Of a stretch of DNA of 64,000 nucleotides, positions 28,593 to 40,458 are shown piece after piece. The translations under genes and the position numbers were made by a program. The notes under the pieces were generated by a model. The model saw only the letters and a program-made list of their open reading frames with translations, was not told where the DNA came from and searched no databases. Every line of letters starts with the position of its first letter. Positions within the stretch are counted from its first letter, which is position 1. Source of the DNA: Vibrio sp. SCSIO 43136 (lineage in GTDB: Bacteria; Pseudomonadota; Gammaproteobacteria; Enterobacterales; Vibrionaceae); contig NZ_CP071848.1 in assembly GCF_023716565.1 (NCBI RefSeq), positions 682,001 to 746,000 on the forward strand, in the 5' to 3' direction.

Positions 28593-31217
28593 TTATTCTG
28601 GCAGTAGCTCGGAGACTCGTTCTACTAACTGATCTCTAAGGATTTCTTGCTCCTGAGCGGATAAAGGTCCTCCATCAGGTGAGGTCAGAATAAACAAATC
28701 TTCCGCTCGCTCACCGATAGTGGTGATCTTTGCAGCATGTAAGTTGATTTTTAACTTAGCGAAAGTCGCTCCCACCTTGGCCAGCAGTCCAGGTGTATCA
28801 AGCGCAACGAACTCCATTAAGGTGCGTTTTTTGGTTCGGGTTGGAATAAAGTCAACCCGAGTACGCACGTTAAAGTGGCGCAGTTTGTTCGGTGTTCGGC
28901 GCACCTTGATAGTGGTGGATTTGCCGCCTTCGAGCACGCTGAGCAGGTGTTTTATCACGTTGCGATGGCGCATCTCTTCAATCGGGTCGCCATTTTGATC
29001 AAGCACCATAAAGGTATCGAGCACAAAACCATCTTTGCTGGTCATGATTTGGGCATCATGCACGTTGAAGTTGCGTCTATCGAGTTCAGCCACCACAGTT
29101 GCAAATAGGCTCGGAAACTCTTTGGAGTAAATGAACACTTCAGTACCCCCACGGGTGGCACGTTTGCTTACCAAGACCAAAGGTTGCTCTGGTGATTCTT
29201 GATTCAGAATGTGTTCACAATGCCAAGCGATTTGCTGGTGGGTATGACGAAGGAAATAGTCGGCTTTGAAACGCTGCCATAGTCGCTCGATATCTCGGTC
29301 AACAAAGCCTTGCTTACGCAGTTGCGCCATGGCCATTTGTTGATTGTGGCGAATGCGATCACGTACATCGACAGGGTTTTCTAGACCTCGGCGCAGCGCT
29401 CTTTGGGTCGAGTGGAAAAGTTCAGCAAGTAGAGTACGTTTCCAACTGTTCCACAGCTCTGGGTTGGTCGCACAGATATCTGCGACCGTGAGGCACACCA
29501 GATATTCTAAATACTCTTCATCACGCACTTTCTTGGCAAACTCTGTCACCACATCGGGATCATAAATATCTCGACGCTGAGCGGTGACTGACATCAACAG
29601 GTGATGGCGCACCAGCCAAGAAACCAGCTTAGCTTCAGGTTTCGACAGGCCGTGCTCGATACAGAAATCGTACGCTTCAACTTCGCCAATCTCCGAGTGA
29701 TCACCCCCACGTCCTTTACCGATATCATGGAAAATAGCCGCTAGAATAAGTAGCTCTTTTTTCTGAATTCTTGGGTACACTTCGCAGCAGATAGGGTGCT
29801 TATCCCGATTTTTTGCGTAGCTGAAGCCGTGAATGTGTTTAAGCAGGCGCATGCTATGCTCATCAACCGTGTAAACATGGAATAGGTCAAATTGCATCTG
29901 GCCTACGATCTGGCTCCACTGCGGCAGATAGGCAGCCATTACTCCCAATTTGTGCATCAGAGGGAACGCTCTCAACAGTGCATTGGGATGACGTACCAGC
30001 TCCATAAACTTGTCACGGGCTTCTGGGATGGTGTGCAAAAACTTGTTTAAGCGGCGGCGAGCGGTACGTAACTGACGTAGCGTTGCCGGGGCGACACTTT
30101 CTATGGTGGAGTCATTGGCGATATGCAGGAACATATCCAAAATGGTTTCTGGACGCGCTTGAAAAAGAGCAGGTTTCCTTGCTTCGATGAAAGGTCCACA
30201 GCGCTGAAAATCGTCGTCAATGATTTGAGTTACCACCACTTCTTCGTGAGGCACGATGGCATGATCAAAGAGTTTGATCAGCATTTTATTGAGTTCCGCA
30301 ACTCGACGCAGCGTGCGGTAGAATTCTTTCATCATCATTTCGATAGGTTTGTTGCCTTCGCCAACAAAGCCTAAATGATTGGCGACTTGCAGCTGATGAG
30401 CAAAAGTAATGCGGTTATCGTAGCGCTTTAGCTCCATGTGCAGAGCAAAGCGCACTCGCCACAAAAAGTCCTGACACTCTTGCAGTTCACGATATTCCGC
30501 ATCGGTTAAAAATCCATGGCGGCTCATTTCAAACAGTGACGTTGCACCGAAATGGCGGCGAGCAATCCAACTTAAAGTATGAATGTCGCGCAGACCACCA
30601 GGGCTGGACTTGAGATCCGGCTCTAGGTTGTAAGTGGTGTCGTGGTAGCGGGCATGGCGTGTTTTCTGTTCGTCTACTTTAGCTTTGAAGAATTCAATGC
30701 TTGGCCAGAAAGTCTCGGAGTGAATTCGTTCAAGCAGTGTGTCGTAGTGGGCTTTGTCTCCACAGATAAAACGCGCTTCTTGCAGGTTGGTTGCCACGGT
30801 GAGATCTTGCTGACCCACCTCAAAGCACTCATCAATAGTGCGCACACTGTGGCCAACTTCAAGGCGTAAATCCCAAAGCAGGGTGATGAACTCACTCACT
30901 TTCTCTTCATCTGCTTTGCAAAGAGGCTGTTTTGAAAGGATCAGGATATCAATGTCAGATAGTGGGTGAAGCTCCCCACGACCATAGCCCCCTACCGCCA
31001 CCAGTGTGATGCCTGTTGGCTGGGTAAATTGGTAGTGTTGCCACAATCGCGTCAGTAGCAAATCCATGTACTCAGAGCGTCCGAGCACGAGGTCGGTCAC
31101 CGGATGGTGCTGAAGAAACTCTTCTTTTTGATAGTCAGTAAATTTTGCCAGCAGCTCGCGTAGCGATTCGGATGAAAGTTGTGACTCATCCAAAGTTAAA
31201 GGTGATTGAATTGGCAT
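28593..31217 (-). CDS. glnD: bifunctional uridylyltransferase/uridylyl-removing enzyme GlnD
   Basis: GlnD senses glutamine and adds or removes UMP on PII proteins such as GlnB, whose gene begins at the right edge of this window. The 874 residues have a nucleotidyltransferase domain with GGYGRGELHPLSDIDILI near 75, an HD hydrolase domain with AAIFHDIGKGRGGDHSEIG near 478, and two C-terminal ACT domains (about 690-780 and 800-874) that bind glutamine. Length and domains are normal. In E. coli map lies directly upstream of it. Here about 9 kb of other genes intervenes. Confidence 0.97.
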   Translation of the reverse strand: MPIQSPLTLDESQLSSESLRELLAKFTDYQKEEFLQHHPVTDLVLGRSEYMDLLLTRLWQHYQFTQPTGITLVAVGGYGRGELHPLSDIDILILSKQPLCKADEEKVSEFITLLWDLRLEVGHSVRTIDECFEVGQQDLTVATNLQEARFICGDKAHYDTLLERIHSETFWPSIEFFKAKVDEQKTRHARYHDTTYNLEPDLKSSPGGLRDIHTLSWIARRHFGATSLFEMSRHGFLTDAEYRELQECQDFLWRVRFALHMELKRYDNRITFAHQLQVANHLGFVGEGNKPIEMMMKEFYRTLRRVAELNKMLIKLFDHAIVPHEEVVVTQIIDDDFQRCGPFIEARKPALFQARPETILDMFLHIANDSTIESVAPATLRQLRTARRRLNKFLHTIPEARDKFMELVRHPNALLRAFPLMHKLGVMAAYLPQWSQIVGQMQFDLFHVYTVDEHSMRLLKHIHGFSYAKNRDKHPICCEVYPRIQKKELLILAAIFHDIGKGRGGDHSEIGEVEAYDFCIEHGLSKPEAKLVSWLVRHHLLMSVTAQRRDIYDPDVVTEFAKKVRDEEYLEYLVCLTVADICATNPELWNSWKRTLLAELFHSTQRALRRGLENPVDVRDRIRHNQQMAMAQLRKQGFVDRDIERLWQRFKADYFLRHTHQQIAWHCEHILNQESPEQPLVLVSKRATRGGTEVFIYSKEFPSLFATVVAELDRRNFNVHDAQIMTSKDGFVLDTFMVLDQNGDPIEEMRHRNVIKHLLSVLEGGKSTTIKVRRTPNKLRHFNVRTRVDFIPTRTKKRTLMEFVALDTPGLLAKVGATFAKLKINLHAAKITTIGERAEDLFILTSPDGGPLSAQEQEILRDQLVERVSELLPE

Positions 31218-31301
31218 AGTTTGCGTTCCGTGCAGCCTAATAGTTATGCTCTCTAATGTATCAGGCTGATGACTGTTTTGCGAAATTTGCTTGTGATTGA
31301 A

Positions 31302-32192
31302 TTAGGTGGCGAGCTCAGAAAGCTGATCAATCAATAGTTTTAGTGGTTCTGACAGAGGATTTGACGCTTGCCAGATGGCATCGGCCGACCATCGATATTG
31401 ACCTTCTTTCTCAACACCAAATTCTATCAGCTCGCCACTTTCGAATAGATGTTCGCAATGCTTGCGTGGCAAGTTCCCCCAGCCGAGACCGTTGCGAATA
31501 AGGTCTAGCGCACAAGGTAGGCTATTGACTTGGTAACAATGGTGGCTAGCGGTTTGCAGTTTACTGTGGCCCATACTCGATATAGAGCGCAATGTGATTT
31601 GACGCATCTGGCGACGTACCTGCTGGGTGATTTCTGCCCCTGTGGTTATATCAAACATGGCGGCATACTCAGGGCTTGCGACAGTAGCGAAAGGAAATGA
31701 TTTTAGCTTCAATTGAGCGAAGTCCATGCCGTACAGCTCAACCGATAGCACGATGGCGATGTCTACTTCACCACTTCTTGCCTTCTCAATGCACTCAGAG
31801 GTGTCACCCTCAATAAATACCAAATCTAACGCAGGATATTGTCGACTCACTTGAGTAATTGCGGTGGTGAACTGTAAACCCAAGATAGAACTATCGATAG
31901 CAATGGTGATTTTGGTCGGCAGTTCTTGCAGCACGCTGAGGGTTCGATAGTTGAACTGCTCAATTTCAAATTCGATGGCTTTTGCGTGCTGATAAAGCTC
32001 TTCTGCTTTTTGGTTTGGCGTCAAAAAACTAGCGTGACGCTCGAACAATTCAAAACCGAGATCGAGCTCAAGGTTGCTGATGCGCTTACTCAGGGTGGAA
32101 GCGTGCTTTTTTTCCTTTCTAGCTGCGAGAGCGAAGCTACCATTCTCATACACCGCAATAAAGGCGGAAATTTGTTCGATACTAGGGTTCAT
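31302..32192 (-). CDS. LysR-family regulator
   Basis: The 296-residue protein has an N-terminal LysR helix-turn-helix (EQISAFIAVYENGSFALAARKEKKHASTLSKRISNLE) and a substrate-binding domain. The recognition helix is unusually Lys/His-rich. It is divergent from the exported amidohydrolase across a 174-bp gap with a T-N11-A palindrome, the usual arrangement for a LysR activator and its target. It is the first gene of the insertion between glnD and map. Confidence 0.85.
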   Translation of the reverse strand: MNPSIEQISAFIAVYENGSFALAARKEKKHASTLSKRISNLELDLGFELFERHASFLTPNQKAEELYQHAKAIEFEIEQFNYRTLSVLQELPTKITIAIDSSILGLQFTTAITQVSRQYPALDLVFIEGDTSECIEKARSGEVDIAIVLSVELYGMDFAQLKLKSFPFATVASPEYAAMFDITTGAEITQQVRRQMRQITLRSISSMGHSKLQTASHHCYQVNSLPCALDLIRNGLGWGNLPRKHCEHLFESGELIEFGVEKEGQYRWSADAIWQASNPLSEPLKLLIDQLSELAT

Positions 32193-32245
32193 TATTGCCG
32201 TCCTAAATAGAGTGTTGATTGATATTCATTATTATTGGCTGTTAA

Positions 32246-32264
32246 GCATGAAGAATGTTCATGC
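32246..32264. promoter_or_regulatory. candidate LysR operator
   Basis: GCATGAA-GAATG-TTCATGC is a perfect inverted repeat containing the T-N11-A core (TGAA-N5-TTCA) typical of LysR sites. It lies 54 bp from the LysR start and about 100 bp before the amidohydrolase. Confidence 0.5.
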
Positions 32265-32337
32265 TGAGCGTGACAATTATAGTCATGCCCAGCGAGTTTG
32301 TGAATGGGGTAAAGCGTGAATAATGGCAATGGTTTAA

Positions 32338-32343
32338 TATAAT
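32338..32343 (+). promoter_or_regulatory. -10 box for the amidohydrolase gene
   Basis: TATAAT lies 24 bp before the start codon with no good -35 box, consistent with an activator-dependent promoter. Confidence 0.4.
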
Positions 32344-32366
32344 ATCTAAATGCATTGGAGCAGATT

Positions 32367-34097
32367 GTGAAAACTAAATCATACTTGCTTTCTTCACTAG
32401 CGATGTCGCTAGTGCTGGCAGCAGGCACAGCAGTGGCAGGTGAAAACGCAGATACGGTGTACATCAATGGACAAGTGTACACAGTGAACGAAAGCCAAGC
32501 GTGGGCGGAAGCCTTTGCGGTAAAAGACGGTGATATCGTTAAAGTTGGTAGCAGCAAAGAAATCACTAACTTTAAAGATTCAGATACTGAAGTTGTTGAC
32601 CTAAAAGGCCAGTTTGTACTTCCGGGCTTTGTGGATGCGCACACCCATCCGGTTCGAGTAGCCATGATGGAAAACGTGTTCTTTAGCCATAGCGCTTTCG
32701 ATATGGTGACACCAGATGAATTTGGTAAGCTGCTTCAAGAGTATGTAAAAGGTAAAGGTGCTAACAAAGAGTGGGTTTACGGCAAAGCGTTCTCTTGGAC
32801 CTTTTTCCACAATACTGGTGTAGAAATGGATCGCCATTTCCTAGATAAGTACGTGCCTGATCGCCCGGTTGCGATTGAAGATGATGGTGGTCACGTTGTT
32901 GTGGTGAACACTAAAGCGCTTGAAGCGGCGGGCATCACGAAAGATACAGTAGCACCAGAAGGTGGCAAATACGGTAAAGATGAGAATGGCGAACTGAATG
33001 GCCACCTGATTGCAGGTCCGGCGATTCAATCGGTGCTCATTCATCACCCGCCTCACCTACAGCAAGATGTAACCCAAGCGGCGTTTGAATCAATGCAAAC
33101 CAACAACCGCTTTGGTATCACGGGCATGAAAGTTGTAGAAGGTGATCGTGAGCAAATGCAGGCTTACCATGACCTTGATGCTGACGGTCGCTTAACTGCA
33201 GACGTGAACATGCACCCATATTTGAAAGAGTTCTTCTTCGGTACTGATATTACGCCAGCATTGAATGAGAAAGAGAAATATGAGACTGAGCGCTTCCGTA
33301 TCGATGGTGTTAAAGCGTTTATTGACTCCTCTTTCTTTGGCCGTGCGGCTGCAATGCATAAGCCTTACAAAAACTCAGATGACTACGGCAAGCTATACAC
33401 ACCGTACGAAGAGTTCAAAGATATCATGATCAAATACAATGGCATGGGAATGTCAGTAACTACTCACTCAGTGGGTGATCGTGGTACCTCATTAGTGCTT
33501 AAGGCGATGGAAGAGTCTGCAAAGGTTAACGGTATTGAAAAGGTTCGAGCACTGCGTAACCACATCGCACACTGTTTCATGGTTCAAGAGCAAGATTTCG
33601 GCCGCGCTAAGAATCTAGATGTTTCTCTAGAATTCTCGCCAGGCTTCTGGACTCCACTACCACTTTACAAAGTGCTTGAGCAAGAGATGGAAGTTGAAGA
33701 CATCATGAATTTCTTCCCAATCAAGCAAGCAGCTGAGCACGGTAACACTTATATTGCCGCAGCTGACTGGAGCCAAAGTGAGATTGATCCACTGGTTCAC
33801 ATCGAGACCCTAACGACTCGTCGTTTTGCGGGCCAACCGGAAACTGCTGAGACCCTAAACTCTGACATGCAGATCCCTCTGGAAACAGCTATTCGTGCCT
33901 ACACCATCAACCCGGCGTATGCGATGAAGCTGGAAGACAAAGTGGGCTCTTTGGAAGTAGGTAAGAAAGCAAACTTCCAGATCATGACGGCTAACTTGTT
34001 TGAAGTACCGCAAAATCAGGTTCACGCACAGTACGCAACTCAGGTGTACTTCGAGGGTAAACTGATTGTGGAAAACAGCCAAAAGCCAGTTGAATAA
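32367..34097 (+). CDS. exported amidohydrolase (YtcJ-like, amidohydrolase_3)
   Basis: A 576-residue metal-dependent hydrolase of the COG1574 / YtcJ type. The first 25 residues form a signal peptide (LLSSLAMSLVLAAGTAVAG), so it should act in the periplasm. Metal-site motifs are VDAHTHP (His92, His94), VTTHSVGDRG, RNHIAHC and AAADWSQSEIDP. The substrate cannot be read from sequence; relatives act on N-substituted formamides and similar amides. The GTG at 32367 follows GGAG at good spacing and is preferred over the TTG at 32355. A strong terminator follows. Confidence 0.85.
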   Translation: MKTKSYLLSSLAMSLVLAAGTAVAGENADTVYINGQVYTVNESQAWAEAFAVKDGDIVKVGSSKEITNFKDSDTEVVDLKGQFVLPGFVDAHTHPVRVAMMENVFFSHSAFDMVTPDEFGKLLQEYVKGKGANKEWVYGKAFSWTFFHNTGVEMDRHFLDKYVPDRPVAIEDDGGHVVVVNTKALEAAGITKDTVAPEGGKYGKDENGELNGHLIAGPAIQSVLIHHPPHLQQDVTQAAFESMQTNNRFGITGMKVVEGDREQMQAYHDLDADGRLTADVNMHPYLKEFFFGTDITPALNEKEKYETERFRIDGVKAFIDSSFFGRAAAMHKPYKNSDDYGKLYTPYEEFKDIMIKYNGMGMSVTTHSVGDRGTSLVLKAMEESAKVNGIEKVRALRNHIAHCFMVQEQDFGRAKNLDVSLEFSPGFWTPLPLYKVLEQEMEVEDIMNFFPIKQAAEHGNTYIAAADWSQSEIDPLVHIETLTTRRFAGQPETAETLNSDMQIPLETAIRAYTINPAYAMKLEDKVGSLEVGKKANFQIMTANLFEVPQNQVHAQYATQVYFEGKLIVENSQKPVE

Positions 34098-34129
34098 TCT
34101 CGGCTTGCTAATTCGTTAGCTTGGAAAGT

Positions 34130-34187
34130 ATGGGCTGCCACAGGACTTGGCATTGTCGAGTCTGATGGCAGCCCATTTTTGTTTTTT
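34130..34187 (+). terminator. terminator after the amidohydrolase
   Basis: ATGGGCTGCCA and TGGCAGCCCAT pair over 11 bp around a 25-nt loop and are followed by TTTTGTTTTTT. Confidence 0.8.
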
Positions 34188-34224
34188 GTCTTTTAGGCAT
34201 AAGTGCTGGCTTTAAAAATGAGCT

Positions 34225-34360
34225 TTTCCCCTTTTCATGGGGGAGATGGAGGGGGTTATATCTACGATGCTATTTATTGAGGTTTTCTTAAATACATCCG
34301 TTAATTTTTAACCCCTCCCAGCCTCCCCCGGAACGCCGACCGCTTGAAAGGGGAGGGGCT
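34225..34360. repeat. pair of inverted REP-like G/C elements
   Basis: GGGGGAGATGGAGGGGGTTA near 34240 and TAACCCCTCCCAGCCTCCCCC near 34309 are imperfect inverted copies about 50 bp apart. The outer right part (34322-34358, CCTCCCCC...CCGCTTGAAAGGGGAGGGG) is a copy of the element at 28034-28070 in reverse. The block occupies most of the gap before the CDF-SPFH gene, and apart from the terminator I see nothing else in 34098-34410. Confidence 0.75.
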
Positions 34361-34410
34361 AAAAAGCAAAGCATTTAAGCCTAAGAGGTACTCCACCTTC
34401 ACAGGTACAT

Positions 34411-36300
34411 ATGATGTTTTCAGACCGAAGAATAAGAACATCCGCAACTGCCTTAGTGATTGATCTGATCCTGACAGGGTTTCGGATCTTTTTGGCTTGG
34501 CTAACCGCCAGCGTAGCACTGACCGCCGACGCTCTGCATTCGTTTACTGACATGCTGGTCTCTTTTGCACTGCTGCTCAGCATGATCTACCGTTTCCGTC
34601 AGGAGAAATCTGGCTGCGAGAGGCGGATTCAGCGTGCGATCAAACTCGAAGCCATTGCCGTCATTTTGGTATCACTTCTTATCCTTGCGGTGCCATTTGA
34701 AATCTACCAACAGACTCAGAGTATGCAGTTCACCAATATCCAGAATGTTTGGTGGGGGGTGGCAGGCATCGGTGTGGTGATGTTGGTCCTGCTATTTATC
34801 GCTAAGCTCAAGATGCTGGTGGGCATAGAAACGGACTCAGAAGCACTCAAAGCCGATAGTCAGCATACAAAAGTCGACTTGATGACTTCTGCAGCGGTGA
34901 TGCTCTCACTGGTGGGTTCGCTGGTGGGGATTAATATCGATGAATATGTCGCACTCTTGATTGCTGTGATGATCATGGCGGCAGGTGCTGAGCTTCTGAT
35001 AAGCGGCATTCGCTCTCTAACTGGTCATGACAGTAGTGAGGTTTCATTATGGGATTGGTGCTACCGTCGCCTCATCGTTGCGCTTCCTCGCATCCCACTC
35101 AAGGCGATTATTGATGGCATGTTTGGCGTTATCGGTAAGGTGTGGAAGCCTACAATTACCGTGCTATTTCTGGTCTACCTTAGCTCTGGCATTACTACGG
35201 TACCTCAAGGCTTTGTTGGGGTTCAGAGCCGCTTTGGCAAAATCATAGAGCAAGATATCGAGCCGGGTTTAGTGTTAGCGTTGCCTGCACCAATAGAAAA
35301 GGTGGAGCTGGTGCCATCAGGACGACTTTACTCGCTCCGCATTGGCGGCAAGAATTCGTTTTTGCGTCCAGCTTATGGTTCAAAGTTATGGCACTCGGTT
35401 AAGCAGAGCCAACTTAGCCGCGAAGATGCCGACTATTTGCTGACGGGCGATGAAAAACTGATGTTCTTAACTGCTGATGTGCAGTACCGAATCAGTGAGC
35501 CAAGTGCTGAACTGACACGCTTTAGCAGCATTGAAAACCTTCTTAGCAATCTAGCTAACGCAGTATTGATCAGTAGCAGTACCAAACAGGGTTTTAACCA
35601 ACTGCAAGAGTATGGATTTAACCGCTATGCCGAAGCGCTTGAACTCAGCATTGCGAAAGAAGTTCAACTGTTTGATCTTCCAGTAGATATTGTCTCAGTC
35701 AATGTTCAGCAAATTGAGCCGCCTGCCTACCTTGTTGCTCAATACCGTGATGCGCTCGATGCGTTTCAAGAGAGCCACACTCTGGTTAATCAAGCCAATG
35801 CTTGGAGCTTGACGGAAATCCCTAAGGCGCGAGCGGAGCACTTCCAAGTCAAGGCTGATGCCAAGGCTCAAGCGAGCAAGCGCATTTACTCGGTAGAGGG
35901 CGAAACAGGCCGCTTTCAACAGGTAGGAAAGATCTACAAAAGATCACCTGAGGCGTACCGCTTCAATCAACAGGTTGAGATTGCCGAGAACGCCTTAAGC
36001 GGTAAGCCATTTACTGTGGTAGACCCGGCGTTCAGCAGCTTAGATTTCCGCATCTGGGGCAACAATCTAGCAATGCCTGCGCTTACCACCGTGGAATCAG
36101 GTTCTTCGAGCACAGAAAGTGAGGCGTTACTTTCAGGCTTTGAGCAGAGCATACCTGTGACCACAAGCCAAAACCGCACAGAAACAACCACCGCTTCCGG
36201 TTATAGCCCTTACGAGGGGCTGAGTGAAGGGGAGCGCAGCTTAGATGCTGAGCAGCGTGATTTGTTAAATAAACTACGAGTATTTAGTTCAGGTCGATAA
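34411..36300 (+). CDS. fusion of a CDF metal-transporter domain and an HflK-like SPFH domain
   Basis: The 629-residue protein begins with six membrane helices (about 13-31, 34-58, 80-98, 114-134, 157-174, 177-198) of the cation-diffusion-facilitator type. The metal-site ligands are present as HxxxD in helix 2 (His43, Asp47; DALHSFTD) and HxxxD in helix 5 (His152, Asp156; ADSQHTKVD). The CDF C-terminal cytoplasmic domain is absent. Instead a seventh helix (about 247-264) leads into an SPFH/band-7 domain of HflK type (GITTVPQGFVGVQSRFGKIIEQDIEPGL) with the later HflK-like region IEPPAYLVAQYRDALDAFQ. The tail is Ser/Thr-rich. Two further SPFH genes follow immediately. A metal-transport role is inferred from the ligands only. 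Confidence 0.85.
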   Translation: MMFSDRRIRTSATALVIDLILTGFRIFLAWLTASVALTADALHSFTDMLVSFALLLSMIYRFRQEKSGCERRIQRAIKLEAIAVILVSLLILAVPFEIYQQTQSMQFTNIQNVWWGVAGIGVVMLVLLFIAKLKMLVGIETDSEALKADSQHTKVDLMTSAAVMLSLVGSLVGINIDEYVALLIAVMIMAAGAELLISGIRSLTGHDSSEVSLWDWCYRRLIVALPRIPLKAIIDGMFGVIGKVWKPTITVLFLVYLSSGITTVPQGFVGVQSRFGKIIEQDIEPGLVLALPAPIEKVELVPSGRLYSLRIGGKNSFLRPAYGSKLWHSVKQSQLSREDADYLLTGDEKLMFLTADVQYRISEPSAELTRFSSIENLLSNLANAVLISSSTKQGFNQLQEYGFNRYAEALELSIAKEVQLFDLPVDIVSVNVQQIEPPAYLVAQYRDALDAFQESHTLVNQANAWSLTEIPKARAEHFQVKADAKAQASKRIYSVEGETGRFQQVGKIYKRSPEAYRFNQQVEIAENALSGKPFTVVDPAFSSLDFRIWGNNLAMPALTTVESGSSSTESEALLSGFEQSIPVTTSQNRTETTTASGYSPYEGLSEGERSLDAEQRDLLNKLRVFSSGR

Positions 36301-36302
36301 CC

Positions 36303-37220
36303 ATGAAGAATCAAGCACAGAAGTTCAAAATTTGGTGGGTAGTCGCTGCACTGCTCTCTATTTATGTTGCAGTGACCTGCTTTGTGTCAGTCAAAGAGTC
36401 TGAGTTTGCGGTGATCACCCAGTTTGGTAAGCCGGTAAAAACGGTTTCTGAGGCGGGCGCAGTGGTTAAACTGCCAAATCCAGTACAGGCAGTCACTCGT
36501 CTTGAAAAGCGTGTACAGATGCTGAGCTTAGAGCCTGCGGAATACAGCACTCGCGACCGTCGTAATGTGGTGGTCGATAACTATGTGGTGTGGCGTATTG
36601 TTGAGCCTATCACCTACCTAACCAGTGTGCGTACAACCGAGATCGCTGAGCAGCGTCTCAACACCATTACTAACTCAGAGATTGGTTCTATGCTGGCTTC
36701 TTACCAACTCGGGCAAATCCTAAACGTCGACAGTGAAGAGAACCATCTCGACCAACTGTTTAAGCAAGTATCAGAAAATGTCAATCAAGTCAGCCAGAAA
36801 GAGCTAGGGATTGAAGTGCTTGCCGTCCGTGCGGTCAAGTTTGGTTACTCGCCACGCAACCTTAAATCTATCTATGACCGCATGAGTTCAGAGTGGGAGC
36901 GCCTGTCGAAGAAGTACCGTGCTGAGGGACGAGAGCAAGCCGAGAAGATCCGTGCTCAAACTGAGCAAGAAATCGTTGAGCTTAAATCACAAGCGTACCG
37001 CGATAGCCAGATCATCAAGGGCAAAAGTGAAGCTAAGGCGGCGCAGCTATATAGCCAAGCGTTTGAGTCGAATCGAGAGTTCTTTGAATTTGTGCGAACC
37101 ATGGAAGCGTATAAGGCCGTATTTGGCAACAACACTCAGTTGATCCTGCCATCAGACTCTAGTCTGTTTAAGATGCTGGTCGAGCCAGAGTTTGAATCAA
37201 ACCGTGGTGAGGGCGAGTAA
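36303..37220 (+). CDS. HflC-like SPFH protein
   Basis: A 305-residue SPFH/band-7 protein with an N-terminal membrane helix (WWVVAALLSIYVAVTCFVSV) and a band-7 domain starting KESEFAVITQFGKPVKTV. A long charged helix ends in LKSQAYRDSQIIKGKSEAKAAQLYSQAFESNREFFEFVRTMEAYK, which follows HflC closely, including the C-terminal LILPSDSSLFKML. E. coli HflC has 334 residues. It starts two bases after the CDF-SPFH stop and its stop overlaps the next start (TAATG), so the three genes are strictly coupled. In E. coli HflK and HflC form a cage around the FtsH protease, and a similar hetero-oligomer is inferred here. Confidence 0.88.
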   Translation: MKNQAQKFKIWWVVAALLSIYVAVTCFVSVKESEFAVITQFGKPVKTVSEAGAVVKLPNPVQAVTRLEKRVQMLSLEPAEYSTRDRRNVVVDNYVVWRIVEPITYLTSVRTTEIAEQRLNTITNSEIGSMLASYQLGQILNVDSEENHLDQLFKQVSENVNQVSQKELGIEVLAVRAVKFGYSPRNLKSIYDRMSSEWERLSKKYRAEGREQAEKIRAQTEQEIVELKSQAYRDSQIIKGKSEAKAAQLYSQAFESNREFFEFVRTMEAYKAVFGNNTQLILPSDSSLFKMLVEPEFESNRGEGE

Positions 37221-38113
37221 TGAGCTGGTGGAATGATGTTCAGCGAGTTAGCTTGCAGATATTTGTCCGTTTGCGCTGGCTGATGTTAATCGCTGTAATC
37301 GCTTTGTATGCCGTCAGCGGGTTTTACTCGGTTGATTCCGATCAGCGTGCAGTCGTGAGTCGTTTTGGCAAGGTAACCGATCATAATGTGCTACCGGGCA
37401 TGCACTATCGCCTACCTTGGCCGTTTGAGAGTGTGGAGACACTTTCAGCAGTCGAGCTGCGCTCGGTAAATATCGACTTCTCTAAAGAAATGGATAGCTC
37501 CATTGTTGGCCGTGAGCTAACCACAGGGAAAGGGGACTTGATAGAGCTGGCGTTACAGGTGCAATACAGTATCCCGAGCCCTGGCAAATTCTTGACGCAA
37601 TCTATGGATGCGGAGTCTATCTTACGCAATATCGCTAAGGCGCAAGCGGTGACTTATGTTAGCCAGCGAGAGTTAGACAGCTTACTCACCACAGGAAGAA
37701 CGAACTTTCAGCGTTGGATGAAGCAAGCCTTGCAGCAAGAGCTGGACTTATTTGATTCAGGGATCTTGGTAACCAATGTGATGCTGAATCGCCTTGAAAC
37801 TCCCAAGGTGATCAAAAAGGCCTACGATGACGTTCAAATGGCTCCGGCAGTGAAAGAAAAGCTAATCCAAGATGCCTTGGGTGAGCGTGAAATCAAGTTG
37901 GCGCAGGCACGCAGTGAGGTGGTTAAAAGTACTAAACGGGTTGAGGCTGAGGCCAAGGCTCGTGTAACCAATACTGAGGGGGAGGTAGAGCGCCTTAATA
38001 CTCTAATTGCGAGTCTCGAGAGTGAGCCGGAACTGACTAAGAAGCGCTTGTATCTAGAGACACTTAAAGAGGTTTTGGAGAAAGCTCAGGTGCGATTTGT
38101 GAATCAGGATTAG
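37220..38113 (+). CDS. HflK-like SPFH protein
   Basis: The 297-residue protein has an N-terminal helix (about 19-35), then the HflK-type SPFH domain (YSVDSDQRAVVSRFGKVTDHNVLPGMHYRLPWPFESVE). The downstream helix contains TPKVIKKAYDDVQMAPAVKEKLIQDALGEREIKLAQARSEVV and ends KKRLYLETLKEVLEKAQ, as in HflK. It lacks the Gly-rich N-terminal tail of E. coli HflK. It is the third and last gene of the SPFH operon, starting on the stop of the HflC-like gene (TAATG). These are paralogues of, not replacements for, the canonical hflK-hflC, which in gammaproteobacteria sit beside hflX. Confidence 0.87.
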   Translation: MSWWNDVQRVSLQIFVRLRWLMLIAVIALYAVSGFYSVDSDQRAVVSRFGKVTDHNVLPGMHYRLPWPFESVETLSAVELRSVNIDFSKEMDSSIVGRELTTGKGDLIELALQVQYSIPSPGKFLTQSMDAESILRNIAKAQAVTYVSQRELDSLLTTGRTNFQRWMKQALQQELDLFDSGILVTNVMLNRLETPKVIKKAYDDVQMAPAVKEKLIQDALGEREIKLAQARSEVVKSTKRVEAEAKARVTNTEGEVERLNTLIASLESEPELTKKRLYLETLKEVLEKAQVRFVNQD

Positions 38114-38174
38114 TCGTTAATACAAATACTATAGGGCATCTCACTAGTTTTAATTGCTGTGCATTGATTGTCGA

Positions 38175-38204
38175 TTGAACATGTAGGTAGTCATGATTTA
38201 TAAA
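38175..38204 (+). promoter_or_regulatory. promoter for the coiled-coil/zinc-finger gene
   Basis: TTGAAC and TATAAA with an 18-bp spacer lie 65 bp before the start codon, so this gene can be transcribed apart from the SPFH operon. No terminator is seen between them. Confidence 0.5.
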
Positions 38205-38268
38205 TAATATATGGTACCATGTCGTATCTTTACTCAAGCAAATGTTACAACAAATTTAGGTTCTCTTT

Positions 38269-39189
38269 ATGCAAGATATAGAATTTTTGGTCATAAGCAT
38301 TCTTTCGATAGTTACTATTTTTTCTTTGATTAAGCTAAAAGGTGCTTCTAGAAAGGCTAAAGATATAAACGAAAAGTACAATATTTTACTTAACTCGACT
38401 GACAGCTTGAGTAAAGATCTGACGAAATGCAATAAGCAGTTCGAAGTATACGAGAAAAGAGTATTAAAGCTAAGCGAAGAGCTGCAAAGCCAAAAAGAGA
38501 ACGCTAGAGTTATATTGAATAGCGAAGCTGAGCTAAAGTCTTATTATGAGGAACAGATACACCAACTTAGTGATAAAGTTAGACGTAATGAGAATCGAGT
38601 CAAGAATGCAGTTCGATGTTACGAAGATCTAAAGCAGCTAATAGATAACGCAAGATTTCGCCTGATGAGTAGAGGCGCATTTGGTGTAGAGCTATCTAGT
38701 ACTTTTGAACGTCGTTTCATTTGTTATTGTTGTGGTGGAAGCGGGGTCGTATCTTTAATTGCTGGTGGCTCAAACAAAATCGATAAGAATCTTATGTGCG
38801 AACATTGTAATGGTTCAGGGGTTGAACCTACGGCTTCAATTGCAGTTCCAAGCACTGGTGAGAGAGTAGCTATTCAGGATGTCTATAAAGGATTTTTATC
38901 TCGGGGCATGACCGACAACTTCAATACCATGGGTTTGGGTAGCCGCGGTTACGAATGGGCATTATTTGGTATTGTCGTTAAGTATGTAGCGGAGAAGAAC
39001 AAGTTTACTTTTTACAACTCAATGGGAGATTCAATATCTATTGCCATTCCAGAGCAGGATGATTGCCCCCACCAAAGTATCAGCAATTATTTGGGGCGGT
39101 ATATAGACTATGTAAGGCATACTTCAGGAGAGTATGAAGAGCTCAATAGTCAATACTGTGTCCTTGATATCAGAGTATCACAATTATAG
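38269..39189 (+). CDS. membrane-anchored coiled-coil protein with CxxCxGxG zinc finger
   Basis: No family is recognised. The 306 residues have one N-terminal membrane helix (about 5-21), a coiled coil (about 25-125) and a zinc-finger unit of two DnaJ-like CxxCxGxG motifs (CYCCGGSG near 152 and CEHCNGSG near 177). A C-terminal domain of about 120 residues follows with no motif I can name. DnaJ proteins have four such motifs and a J domain, and neither is complete here. The gene is visibly more A/T-rich than its neighbours, with codons such as ATA and TTA common, which suggests horizontal origin. Confidence 0.65.
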   Translation: MQDIEFLVISILSIVTIFSLIKLKGASRKAKDINEKYNILLNSTDSLSKDLTKCNKQFEVYEKRVLKLSEELQSQKENARVILNSEAELKSYYEEQIHQLSDKVRRNENRVKNAVRCYEDLKQLIDNARFRLMSRGAFGVELSSTFERRFICYCCGGSGVVSLIAGGSNKIDKNLMCEHCNGSGVEPTASIAVPSTGERVAIQDVYKGFLSRGMTDNFNTMGLGSRGYEWALFGIVVKYVAEKNKFTFYNSMGDSISIAIPEQDDCPHQSISNYLGRYIDYVRHTSGEYEELNSQYCVLDIRVSQL

Positions 39190-39307
39190 TTTACCGATCC
39201 TCAAACACTAAAGTGTTGAGTAACAAAGCTATTTCGAACTTTTGTATTAAAAAATAGACGACCTATTCTTACAGTAAGCACAGACCAATTAACTTAATGC
39301 TATCTCA

Positions 39308-39340
39308 AAGCGCTAGACAGAAATTCAGTCTAGCGCTTTT
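39308..39340. terminator. bidirectional terminator
   Basis: AAAGCGCTAGAC and GTCTAGCGCTTT form a perfect stem around AGAAATTCA, serving the zinc-finger gene on the plus strand and the HxlR gene on the minus strand. Confidence 0.75.
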
Positions 39341-39362
39341 GGGTTCGAGTCAGGGATAGCTA

Positions 39363-39743
39363 CTAGCTTCTCGCATCATAGGCTTGGCGAGCGTGCTCAA
39401 TATCTTGTCTGTGATTATCAGCCCATTGGACTAACTGAAACAGGGGCTTAACCAGATCTTGTCCCATCTCTGTTAGGCAATACTCCACTTTTACCGGCAC
39501 TTCTGCGTAAACGGTTCGATTAACGTAACCTTCTCGCTCCAAATCTCTTAAGGTTTGGGTCAGCATCCGCTGTGAAATTCCTTCGATACGAGATTTAAGT
39601 GAGTTAAATCGGTCGGCACCATCAACCAGTGCAAACAAGATCAGCAATGACCACTTGTCACCAATTTGTGAGACCACGTTGCGAACGGCGCAGCCTTCGT
39701 TATTGTGAAATACTCTTCTTTCCATATTCGCTTGTGCAGTCAT
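39363..39743 (-). CDS. HxlR-family transcriptional regulator
   Basis: A 126-residue winged-helix regulator of the HxlR/MarR-like type: KWSLLILFALVDGADRFNSLKSRIEGISQRMLTQTLRDLEREGYVNR. A cysteine near the N-terminus (NEGCAVRNVVSQIGDKW) is typical and is used for redox or aldehyde sensing in several relatives. It is divergent from the secreted NTF2-like gene, its probable target. Confidence 0.9.
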   Translation of the reverse strand: MTAQANMERRVFHNNEGCAVRNVVSQIGDKWSLLILFALVDGADRFNSLKSRIEGISQRMLTQTLRDLEREGYVNRTVYAEVPVKVEYCLTEMGQDLVKPLFQLVQWADNHRQDIEHARQAYDARS

Positions 39744-39798
39744 TTAGCACACCTTCTCAATGTTATTAGCACGACTTTCTTCATCTTTTTACCATGCA

Positions 39799-39887
39799 TA
39801 GGTTACCAAAATGTGCCTAGCGCAGACAAAAGTGCCTTCTTGTTATGTAGGTTACTATTAATTACCATGGTTATCAATGTATACCTA
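39799..39887. promoter_or_regulatory. repeat motifs in the HxlR / NTF2-like divergent region
   Basis: TAGGTTAC occurs at 39799-39806 and 39848-39855, and the near-inverse GTATACCTA lies at 39879-39887. They may be HxlR binding half-sites between the divergent genes. Confidence 0.35.
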
Positions 39888-39915
39888 AATAGATAAAGTG
39901 AACTAGGAGATACCC

Positions 39916-40458
39916 ATGTTAAAACAAATGACCACAATGATTTTTTTGCTCGTGAGCACAATCACTTATGCGACCGCATCAGACAAGCTTGTGATTGATT
40001 TGGAGAATTTACAGAAACCAAACTGGAGTGAGCAAGAGCGTCAAAACGCAGTGATAATCACCGATTTTGTGCAAAACCTCATGAATAACCATAATTTCGA
40101 TTATGTACTGGAACATTACAACGATAGTGCATATGTACAGCACAACCGTAACTTGCCAGATCAAGTGACAGGTTTGGTGGGATTCTTACGTGAGTTTGTC
40201 GAAGAGTATCCAGATTACACTTACGATGTTAAGCATATCTATGTGGATGGCGATTACGTGATTTTCCATTCGCACGCAACACTCGAGAAAGAAGATCGAG
40301 GCAATGACCAAAAAGGGATGAACATTATTGATAAGTGGCGTGTAGAAGATGGCCGCATCGTTGAGCACTGGGACTCAATTCAAGCACTGGATTTTTCGAT
40401 GCGTGTGTACTCTTTGATCAGTGGTGGTGACATTCAAAACGCAAATGGGGTGTTCTAA
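39916..40458 (+). CDS. secreted NTF2/SnoaL-like protein
   Basis: The 180 residues start with a signal peptide (MTTMIFLLVSTITYATA), then a SnoaL/NTF2-like fold: NFDYVLEHYNDSAYVQHNRNLPDQVTGLVGFLREF, YVDGDYVIFHSHATL and NIIDKWRVEDGRIVEHWDSIQ. Such predicted polyketide-cyclase-like proteins are often paired with HxlR regulators and quinone or aldehyde stress. The exact reaction is unknown. A good TAGGAGA ribosome site precedes the ATG. Confidence 0.8.
   Translation: MLKQMTTMIFLLVSTITYATASDKLVIDLENLQKPNWSEQERQNAVIITDFVQNLMNNHNFDYVLEHYNDSAYVQHNRNLPDQVTGLVGFLREFVEEYPDYTYDVKHIYVDGDYVIFHSHATLEKEDRGNDQKGMNIIDKWRVEDGRIVEHWDSIQALDFSMRVYSLISGGDIQNANGVF

Follow-up and report, generated by a model that had tools for sequence, protein, structure and literature searches.

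The genome of Vibrio sp. SCSIO 43136 encodes a 629-residue protein that joins a cation diffusion facilitator (CDF) metal transporter to an HflK-type SPFH domain in a single reading frame, and this fusion is conserved from Vibrio to Myxococcota. The gene lies in the window (the whole 64,000-nucleotide stretch analyzed here, positions 682,001 to 746,000 of contig NZ_CP071848.1), where it heads an operon of SPFH genes. Its best explanation, which has about an even chance of being correct, is a periplasmic SPFH assembly that is fed with metal, probably zinc, and metallates exported hydrolases.

Domain architecture of the CDF-SPFH fusion

The fusion gene and its parts are located as follows.

34411 to 36300, + strand: CDF-SPFH fusion gene, 629 aa, an open reading frame; the start is probably the second Met, at 34414, which is the start in most relatives of the fusion
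34450 to 35019, + strand: CDF transmembrane domain, residues 14-203, with ligands H43, D47, H152, and D156
35098 to 35184, + strand: predicted seventh transmembrane helix, equivalent to the HflK anchor and spanning model residues 230-258 (hydropathy, AF2, profile alignment)
35197 to 35799, + strand: SPFH/Band_7 domain, residues 263-463; as in HflK, a long helix comes next

A Pfam domain search recovers both domains above their cut-offs in the one frame, in agreement with an earlier sequence-only reading of this DNA. Cation_efflux (PF01545) matches residues 14-203 (E 1.6e-19; 70.9 bits, cut-off 26.6), within the stretch of residues 1-205 on which that reading had staked the fusion, and Band_7 (PF01145) matches residues 263-463 (E 9e-8; 32.8 bits, cut-off 23.6). 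The best NCBIfam match is hflK (TIGR01933, 84.5 bits, under the equivalog cut-off of 159.4) and the second is the CDF model (68.7 bits, under its cut-off of 82.35); in these scores the protein differs from canonical HflK and from the YiiP/FieF and ZnT CDFs, respectively. A literature search, which left most subscription journals and preprints outside its reach, found no described protein joining CDF or cation efflux to HflK or SPFH, in line with the earlier statement that the architecture has no characterized example.

All four ligands that had been called intact, His43, Asp47, His152, and Asp156, are kept in 28 of 28 aligned fused proteins. The metal site of the FieF-like standalone CDF of this genome aligns as DDHD, a comparison that uses this row and leaves out three other standalone rows as poorly aligned. 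The HD-HD pattern is linked to zinc, so the metal of the fusion is probably Zn2+. An alignment of 22 fused proteins contains a near-invariant N-terminal DRRIRTS stretch. Residues 555-629 (36073-36297) form a C-terminal extension found only in the Vibrio and Endozoicomonas proteins among these 22, and its end is conserved and preceded by a low-confidence stretch.

Most CDF members, although not all, have a C-terminal cytoplasmic dimerization domain. Here, no further Pfam family is found in the 629 residues at E <= 0.001, neither ZT_dimer nor any other cytoplasmic domain. The earlier claim that the dimerization domain is missing therefore holds in the Pfam search, whereas its second half, that the SPFH domain takes that place, conflicts with the predicted topology. 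Residues 230-258 are hydrophobic and preceded by a loop containing K/R, and the AF2 model shows a helix at this stretch. The profile of the fusion family matches HflK chains (E 2.8e-42) in an alignment that runs through the HflK anchor, while the short anchor stretch alone scores E 0.005. Structure comparison aligns 7vhq_E from model residue 243 and assigns the YiiP fold to the CDF part of the predicted model, a single-chain AF2 model of moderate confidence (pLDDT 69.8, pTM 0.43). Because the seventh helix aligns with the HflK anchor, the SPFH part should lie in the periplasm, on the side where exported metal leaves the pump, rather than in the position of a cytoplasmic domain. Unlike YiiP/FieF and ZnT CDFs, the fusion thus combines the lack of a detected ZT_dimer with an appended seventh helix and SPFH part.

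The operon in Vibrio sp. SCSIO 43136

The fusion gene is flanked by the following features.

31302 to 32192, - strand: divergent LysR-type regulator (Pfam)
32355 to 34097, + strand: amidohydrolase (Amidohydro_3), 580 aa, putative metal client (Pfam; HTH and NHIAH motifs)
34132 to 34174, + strand: terminator-like inverted repeat GGGCTGCCA...TGGCAGCCC, then a T-rich run (read in the sequence)
36303 to 37220, + strand: HflC-like SPFH gene, 305 aa (PF01145 4.5e-19; TIGR01932 hflC 174.9 bits, above the cut-off of 134.4)
37220 to 38113, + strand: HflK-like SPFH gene, 297 aa (PF01145 1.5e-18; TIGR01933 156.8 bits, just under the cut-off of 159.4)

The fusion and HflC-like genes are separated by 2 bases, and the HflC-like and HflK-like genes overlap by 1 base. 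The operon thus consists of three consecutive SPFH genes with the HflC type in the middle. The N-terminus of the amidohydrolase is signal-peptide-like when read by eye, and at E <= 1e-180 this protein is found in two genomes of the 196 sampled from the genus, the ones that hold this fusion type. The terminator-like repeat, which sits between the amidohydrolase and the fusion and was unflagged by a hairpin scan with a loop limit of 8, counts against the best explanation, and a similar repeat precedes a second copy of the fusion on chromosome 2. A dispersed repeat with 19 other (partial) genome matches occupies 34195-34365, between the terminator-like palindrome and the fusion; the chromosome 2 copy lacks it and has the terminator-like repeat close to its start codon. 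Rfam reports nothing at the gathering score in 30000-40000 of the window. Directly 3′ of the operon, a 306-aa ORF (38269-39189) has a coiled-coil-like stretch and, by eye, a DnaJ-like cysteine pattern. This ORF matches no Pfam or NCBIfam family above cut-off and has no counterpart among the ORFs listed after the chromosome 2 copy.

The genome comprises two contigs of 3.17 and 1.81 Mb. The second fusion, at C2:1374449-1376335, is about 68-69% identical to the window copy and is likewise preceded by a LysR gene and an amidohydrolase and followed by HflC-like and HflK-like genes. Identity between the two copies is 81% for the amidohydrolase, 81% for the HflC-like protein, 75% for the HflK-like protein, and 54% for LysR; a LysR gene also adjoins the Vibrio hannami locus. 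Chance joining or sequencing error as the origin of the fusion is ruled out by this second copy and by relatives with the same two-domain frame. Four further Cation_efflux matches are present in the genome.

The fusion shares with HflK and HflC, the modulators of FtsH, an anchor helix, an SPFH domain, and a long helix, and it adjoins HflC-like and HflK-like partner genes. It differs from them in having a metal pump ahead of the anchor, in belonging to an operon of three SPFH proteins rather than two, and in having no FtsH beside that operon. A metal-sensing SPFH regulator of FtsH, in which the CDF part senses or moves metal and an HflKC-like cage gates membrane proteolysis accordingly, would suit SPFH parts that are closest to HflK and HflC, and HflKC-FtsH structures exist. 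This explanation is nevertheless quite unlikely: the only M41 (FtsH-type) match in the genome is on C1, far from the operon, and canonical HflK and HflC are also encoded (L004). Moreover, the FtsH sequence motif is absent from the CDF-SPFH loci scanned (L007-L019, L057, L058, and L068) and present in two other HflKC loci, L062 and L067.

Distribution of the fusion and its partner genes

Relatives of the fusion occur in Vibrio hannami (73% identity), Endozoicomonas (65%), Marinimicrobium, Aliagarivorans (2 species), Marinibactrum, Agaribacter, Thiothrix, Teredinibacter, Neptunomonas, a Cellvibrionaceae bin, three Myxococcota bins, a deltaproteobacterial bin, and the alphaproteobacterium Aquibium, in which the gene is plasmid-borne. 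The two-domain frame recurs in 13 loci in a scan of genome contigs. Added fusions come from G104 and G221 (one family, same class), G493 (same genus), and G1265 and G1122 (order of Marinibactrum). The match table recorded one TAA inside the G493 gene; a broken gene is ruled out by an intact 559-codon ORF that is followed by HflC-like and HflK-like partners.

This survey of other genomes, which had been proposed as a check, shows that the fusion recurs and is rare outside these relatives. Among the matches listed, those that span both domains come from 3 genomes in a class sample of 369, 3 in a genus sample of 196, 1 in a phylum sample of 398, and 3 in a sample of 390 from the order of Marinibactrum; the genome on which each sample was centered is counted. 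The class listing extends to about 1e-34. The other matches listed in the class and phylum samples begin at profile position 206 or later and cover the SPFH part only. Protein searches for relatives scored about 8,000 candidates each and set no limit on the size of the family.

In 20 of 21 loci, the fusion is followed by HflC-like and HflK-like genes. These loci are both copies here, 12 of the 13 scan loci, G104, G221, G493, Aquibium, G1265, and G1122, the partners in the last two being assigned by position, length, and N-terminus. In the remaining locus, that of the Myxococcota bin L017, the fusion has no HflC- or HflK-like gene in the 21.7 kb by tblastn, a point against the metal-loading assembly; the Myxococcota bin L015 has both partners.

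Neighboring metallohydrolases

A metallohydrolase lies within about four genes of the fusion in 14 of 20 testable loci, with G1265 counted and G104 left out of the neighbor counts for its short contigs. An amidohydrolase is upstream in V. hannami and in both copies of the present genome. A PhoX-like protein is encoded upstream together with a lipoprotein of about 560 aa in Agaribacter, Teredinibacter, and the Cellvibrionaceae bin, and the two lie downstream on the opposite strand in Marinibactrum and Neptunomonas; two of these lipoproteins were read as having two CxxCH motifs. In both Aliagarivorans species, an alkaline phosphatase gene immediately follows the fusion cluster, and in G221 the only PF00245 match of the assembly is divergent from the fusion. 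In G493, a metallophosphoesterase gene lies downstream, its product bearing a lipoprotein-like signal, and a DUF3413/sulfatase protein is encoded upstream, past a tRNA-Ser. In the deltaproteobacterial bin (L018), an M19 dipeptidase gene and the start of the fusion share 4 bases. Within three genes upstream of its fusion, G1265 encodes a PhoX-like protein (PF05787, 1.6e-19) and a two-CxxCH lipoprotein.

The divergent PhoX-like protein and the uncharacterized lipoprotein, of about 560-610 aa, form a recurrent exported pair at six loci. Four of the six PhoX-like proteins contain a collagen-like stretch, and the lipoproteins have two CxxCH motifs in 3 of 3 checked, with weak Cytochrome_P460 matches in some.

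L016:6203-9915, PhoX-like/lipoprotein pair
L011:6153-9909, PhoX-like/lipoprotein pair
L013:2457-6266, PhoX-like/lipoprotein pair
L010:15698-19474, PhoX-like/lipoprotein pair
L014:14954-18661, PhoX-like/lipoprotein pair
L100:12009-15675, PhoX-like/lipoprotein pair

A gene of the PhoA or PhoX families lies within about four genes of the fusion in 8 of 15 genomes, against 0.05 expected at 900 genes per Mb, with copy numbers taken by hand and split matches merged. This count omits G104, G493, Aquibium, G1265, and G1122, and its genomes are partly related. The phosphatase category and the Pho motif described below were picked after the first cases had been seen; this does not apply to G1265 and G1122. 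The lineages are not independent of one another.

Loci with no such hydrolase among the scanned ORFs count against the metal-loading explanation. These are Thiothrix, which has HupE/UreJ neighbors; Aquibium, which has Nramp, PCu(A)C, SCO, and P-type ATPase genes; G1122, which has no phosphatase and a cytochrome c′ downstream; and the Myxococcota bins L015, L017, and L019, where few ORFs were scanned. A Thiothrix PhoX gene was ruled out as a neighbor, as it is on a 158,084-base contig and the fusion on an 80,533-base one.

Promoter motifs and the efflux alternative

Upstream regions were scored for PhoB boxes with half-sites phased at 11 bases and compared with 300 shuffles; 23 regions were scored and one more was too short. 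Four of the 23 (both Aliagarivorans species, Neptunomonas, and G493) carry PhoB-box-like arrays that none of the 300 shuffles equals, all in the sense direction and beginning 86-96 bases ahead of the fusion gene. For the other 19 regions, 6 to 300 of 300 shuffles are as good. Near the Thiothrix fusion, two half-sites match with 2 mismatches (0 of 60 shuffles in one test, 26 of 300 by array score). Of the two loci fetched after the patterns had been noted, both follow the promoter pattern and one follows the phosphatase pattern: the G1265 array is equaled by 1 of 300 shuffles, and G1122 has two perfect half-sites, CTGTCATTTCACTGTCAT, that begin 111 bases ahead of the ORF and are equaled by none of 300. 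Two results stand against the metal-loading explanation. The window copy has neither a Pho-type array (293 of 300 shuffles as good before the operon, 298 for the other window region) nor an adjoining phosphatase, and in Aliagarivorans the alkaline phosphatase gene itself lacks an array (equaled by 300 of 300 shuffles). No convincing Fur motif was found ahead of the window genes.

CDF proteins are mostly efflux pumps. The fusion could accordingly be a detoxification pump whose SPFH cage only stabilizes, clusters, or protects the CDF dimer, oligomerizing on the other side of the membrane in lieu of the missing dimerization domain. SPFH proteins do oligomerize, ZT_dimer is absent, and the Aquibium copy is on a plasmid typed as conjugative, within a metal island (Nramp, PCu(A)C, P-type ATPase). 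However, the regulators that Pfam recognizes by the window operon are LysR and HxlR, with no metal-responsive one, the PhoB-box-like promoters of relatives do not fit metal stress, and exported hydrolases are frequent neighbors, all of which make a detoxification pump unlikely.

Comparison with hmtA-type loci

The hmtA locus of Pseudomonas aeruginosa (PA2434-PA2439) also places three SPFH genes by a metal transporter. In a znuA mutant, PA2437, PA2438, and PA2439 (HflC, HflC, and HflK families) are up 9- to 14-fold, and the importer HmtA rises with them (PMC4542158). PMC8531726 describes Zur binding to the PA2439 promoter and hmtA mRNA that is itself unresponsive to added zinc, and PMC11761036 describes hmtA-locus proteins as more abundant under zinc depletion, significantly for some. 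A three-SPFH operon is also described in PA14, in a text from which the word transporter is absent (PMC13086221); its PaFlo5-6-7 probably correspond to the hmtA locus.

Plasmid relatives of this locus in Paraburkholderia, Burkholderia, Klebsiella, and Rhizobium have the order long HflK, HflC, SPFH, and P-type ATPase. A His-rich stretch stands at the N-terminus of the HflC-like protein in five of six read, all but Klebsiella, and several of the linked P-type ATPases also have strongly His-rich N-termini.

L070:8923-9987, His-rich HflC-like protein of an hmtA-type cluster
L071:8941-9960, His-rich HflC-like protein of an hmtA-type cluster
L086:5905-6942, His-rich HflC-like protein of an hmtA-type cluster
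L088:5914-6924, His-rich HflC-like protein of an hmtA-type cluster
L089:5869-6864, His-rich HflC-like protein of an hmtA-type cluster

As an hmtA-like system for zinc scarcity, the complex would concentrate or salvage metal at the membrane, with the CDF part working with or replacing the P-type ATPase importer. The hmtA-type clusters have the same order, beginning with a long HflK that carries an N-terminal membrane domain, and the P. aeruginosa locus is linked to zinc as described above. Yet CDF proteins export, and no P-type ATPase DKTGT motif occurs in any frame of the window. The Zur-box-like site ahead of the fusion gene is no better than shuffles (49 and 28 of 60), and the match upstream of the amidohydrolase is weak (1 and 3 of 60 shuffles, in a consensus search with many comparisons). 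A hidden CDF in the long HflK was rejected, since hhalign gives its membrane domain a probability of 0.3% against 100% for the SPFH parts, and two long HflK proteins scanned have no Cation_efflux match at E <= 1.

Trees of HflC do not bring the two kinds of three-SPFH locus together reliably. A first tree nested the hmtA-type HflC in the CDF-cluster HflC group (joint group 100/88). More sequences changed the arrangement (p-AU 0.045 for a clade of CDF-cluster HflC alone), and support drops to 47/63, with a long-branch warning, once the row B_Delta is left out. A common origin is not claimed from such unstable support. Together, these results make a zinc-scarcity role very unlikely. The hmtA locus is a functional parallel rather than a shared family, with a separate P-type ATPase as its transporter and, in the plasmid relatives, a membrane domain unrelated to CDF by profile.

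Accessory hflK-hflC pairs provide a further link between SPFH proteins and ion transport. They are followed by cation:proton antiporter or NhaA genes (Methylophaga and Vibrio parahaemolyticus plasmids) or by an FtsH-like gene (L062). At L061:2866-10044 (genome G332), a 1162-aa ORF that is Cas9-like by eye, with small ORFs after it, lies just before an accessory hflK-hflC pair.

L073:7970-11154, accessory hflK-hflC pair
L074:7919-11306, accessory hflK-hflC pair
L062:7997-12312, accessory hflK-hflC pair

Proposed function

In the metal-loading explanation, the CDF part, with its six helices and HD-HD site, would move metal, most likely Zn2+, from the cytoplasm to the periplasm. The chain would then cross the membrane by the seventh helix, and the SPFH part would stand in the periplasm and form an HflKC-type cage together with the HflC-like and HflK-like partners. 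Metal would emerge into or beside the chamber, not the bulk periplasm, and would metallate the exported hydrolases encoded beside the operon. The putative clients are the amidohydrolase in this genome and alkaline phosphatase, PhoX-like, or calcineurin-like enzymes in other lineages.

We know of no precedent for an amidohydrolase as such a client, which weighs against this explanation, as does the nature of the linked PhoX-like proteins, a divergent subgroup paired with the two-CxxCH lipoprotein. PhoX uses iron and calcium, not zinc. One metal for all clients therefore cannot be assumed.

To our knowledge, no SPFH part belongs to zinc loading by ZnT5-ZnT6 and ZnT7. These mammalian CDF transporters load zinc enzymes such as alkaline phosphatase (PMC3799634). 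The fusion would resemble them as a CDF pump proposed to feed exported phosphatases, and it differs in compartment, the periplasm rather than an organelle of the animal secretory pathway. In bacteria, P. aeruginosa YiiP supplies periplasmic Zn2+ through PmcY (PMC13231896). The complex of stomatin with aquaporin 1 (9zd2) is likewise an SPFH protein bound to a membrane channel, although its components are separate proteins and human.

The fusion is built of known parts. A bolder reading, which we consider unlikely, is that of a compartment: a cage on the periplasmic face, with a built-in metal pump, would provide exported enzymes with metal apart from the bulk periplasm, and in several lineages the phosphatases served would tie it to phosphate starvation. 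This reading would be novel if shown. The pump-cage fusion ties together two questions, the metal choice of exported periplasmic metalloenzymes and the role of most SPFH cages. If the proposed function is true, it would be a bacterial counterpart of alkaline phosphatase loading by ZnT proteins.
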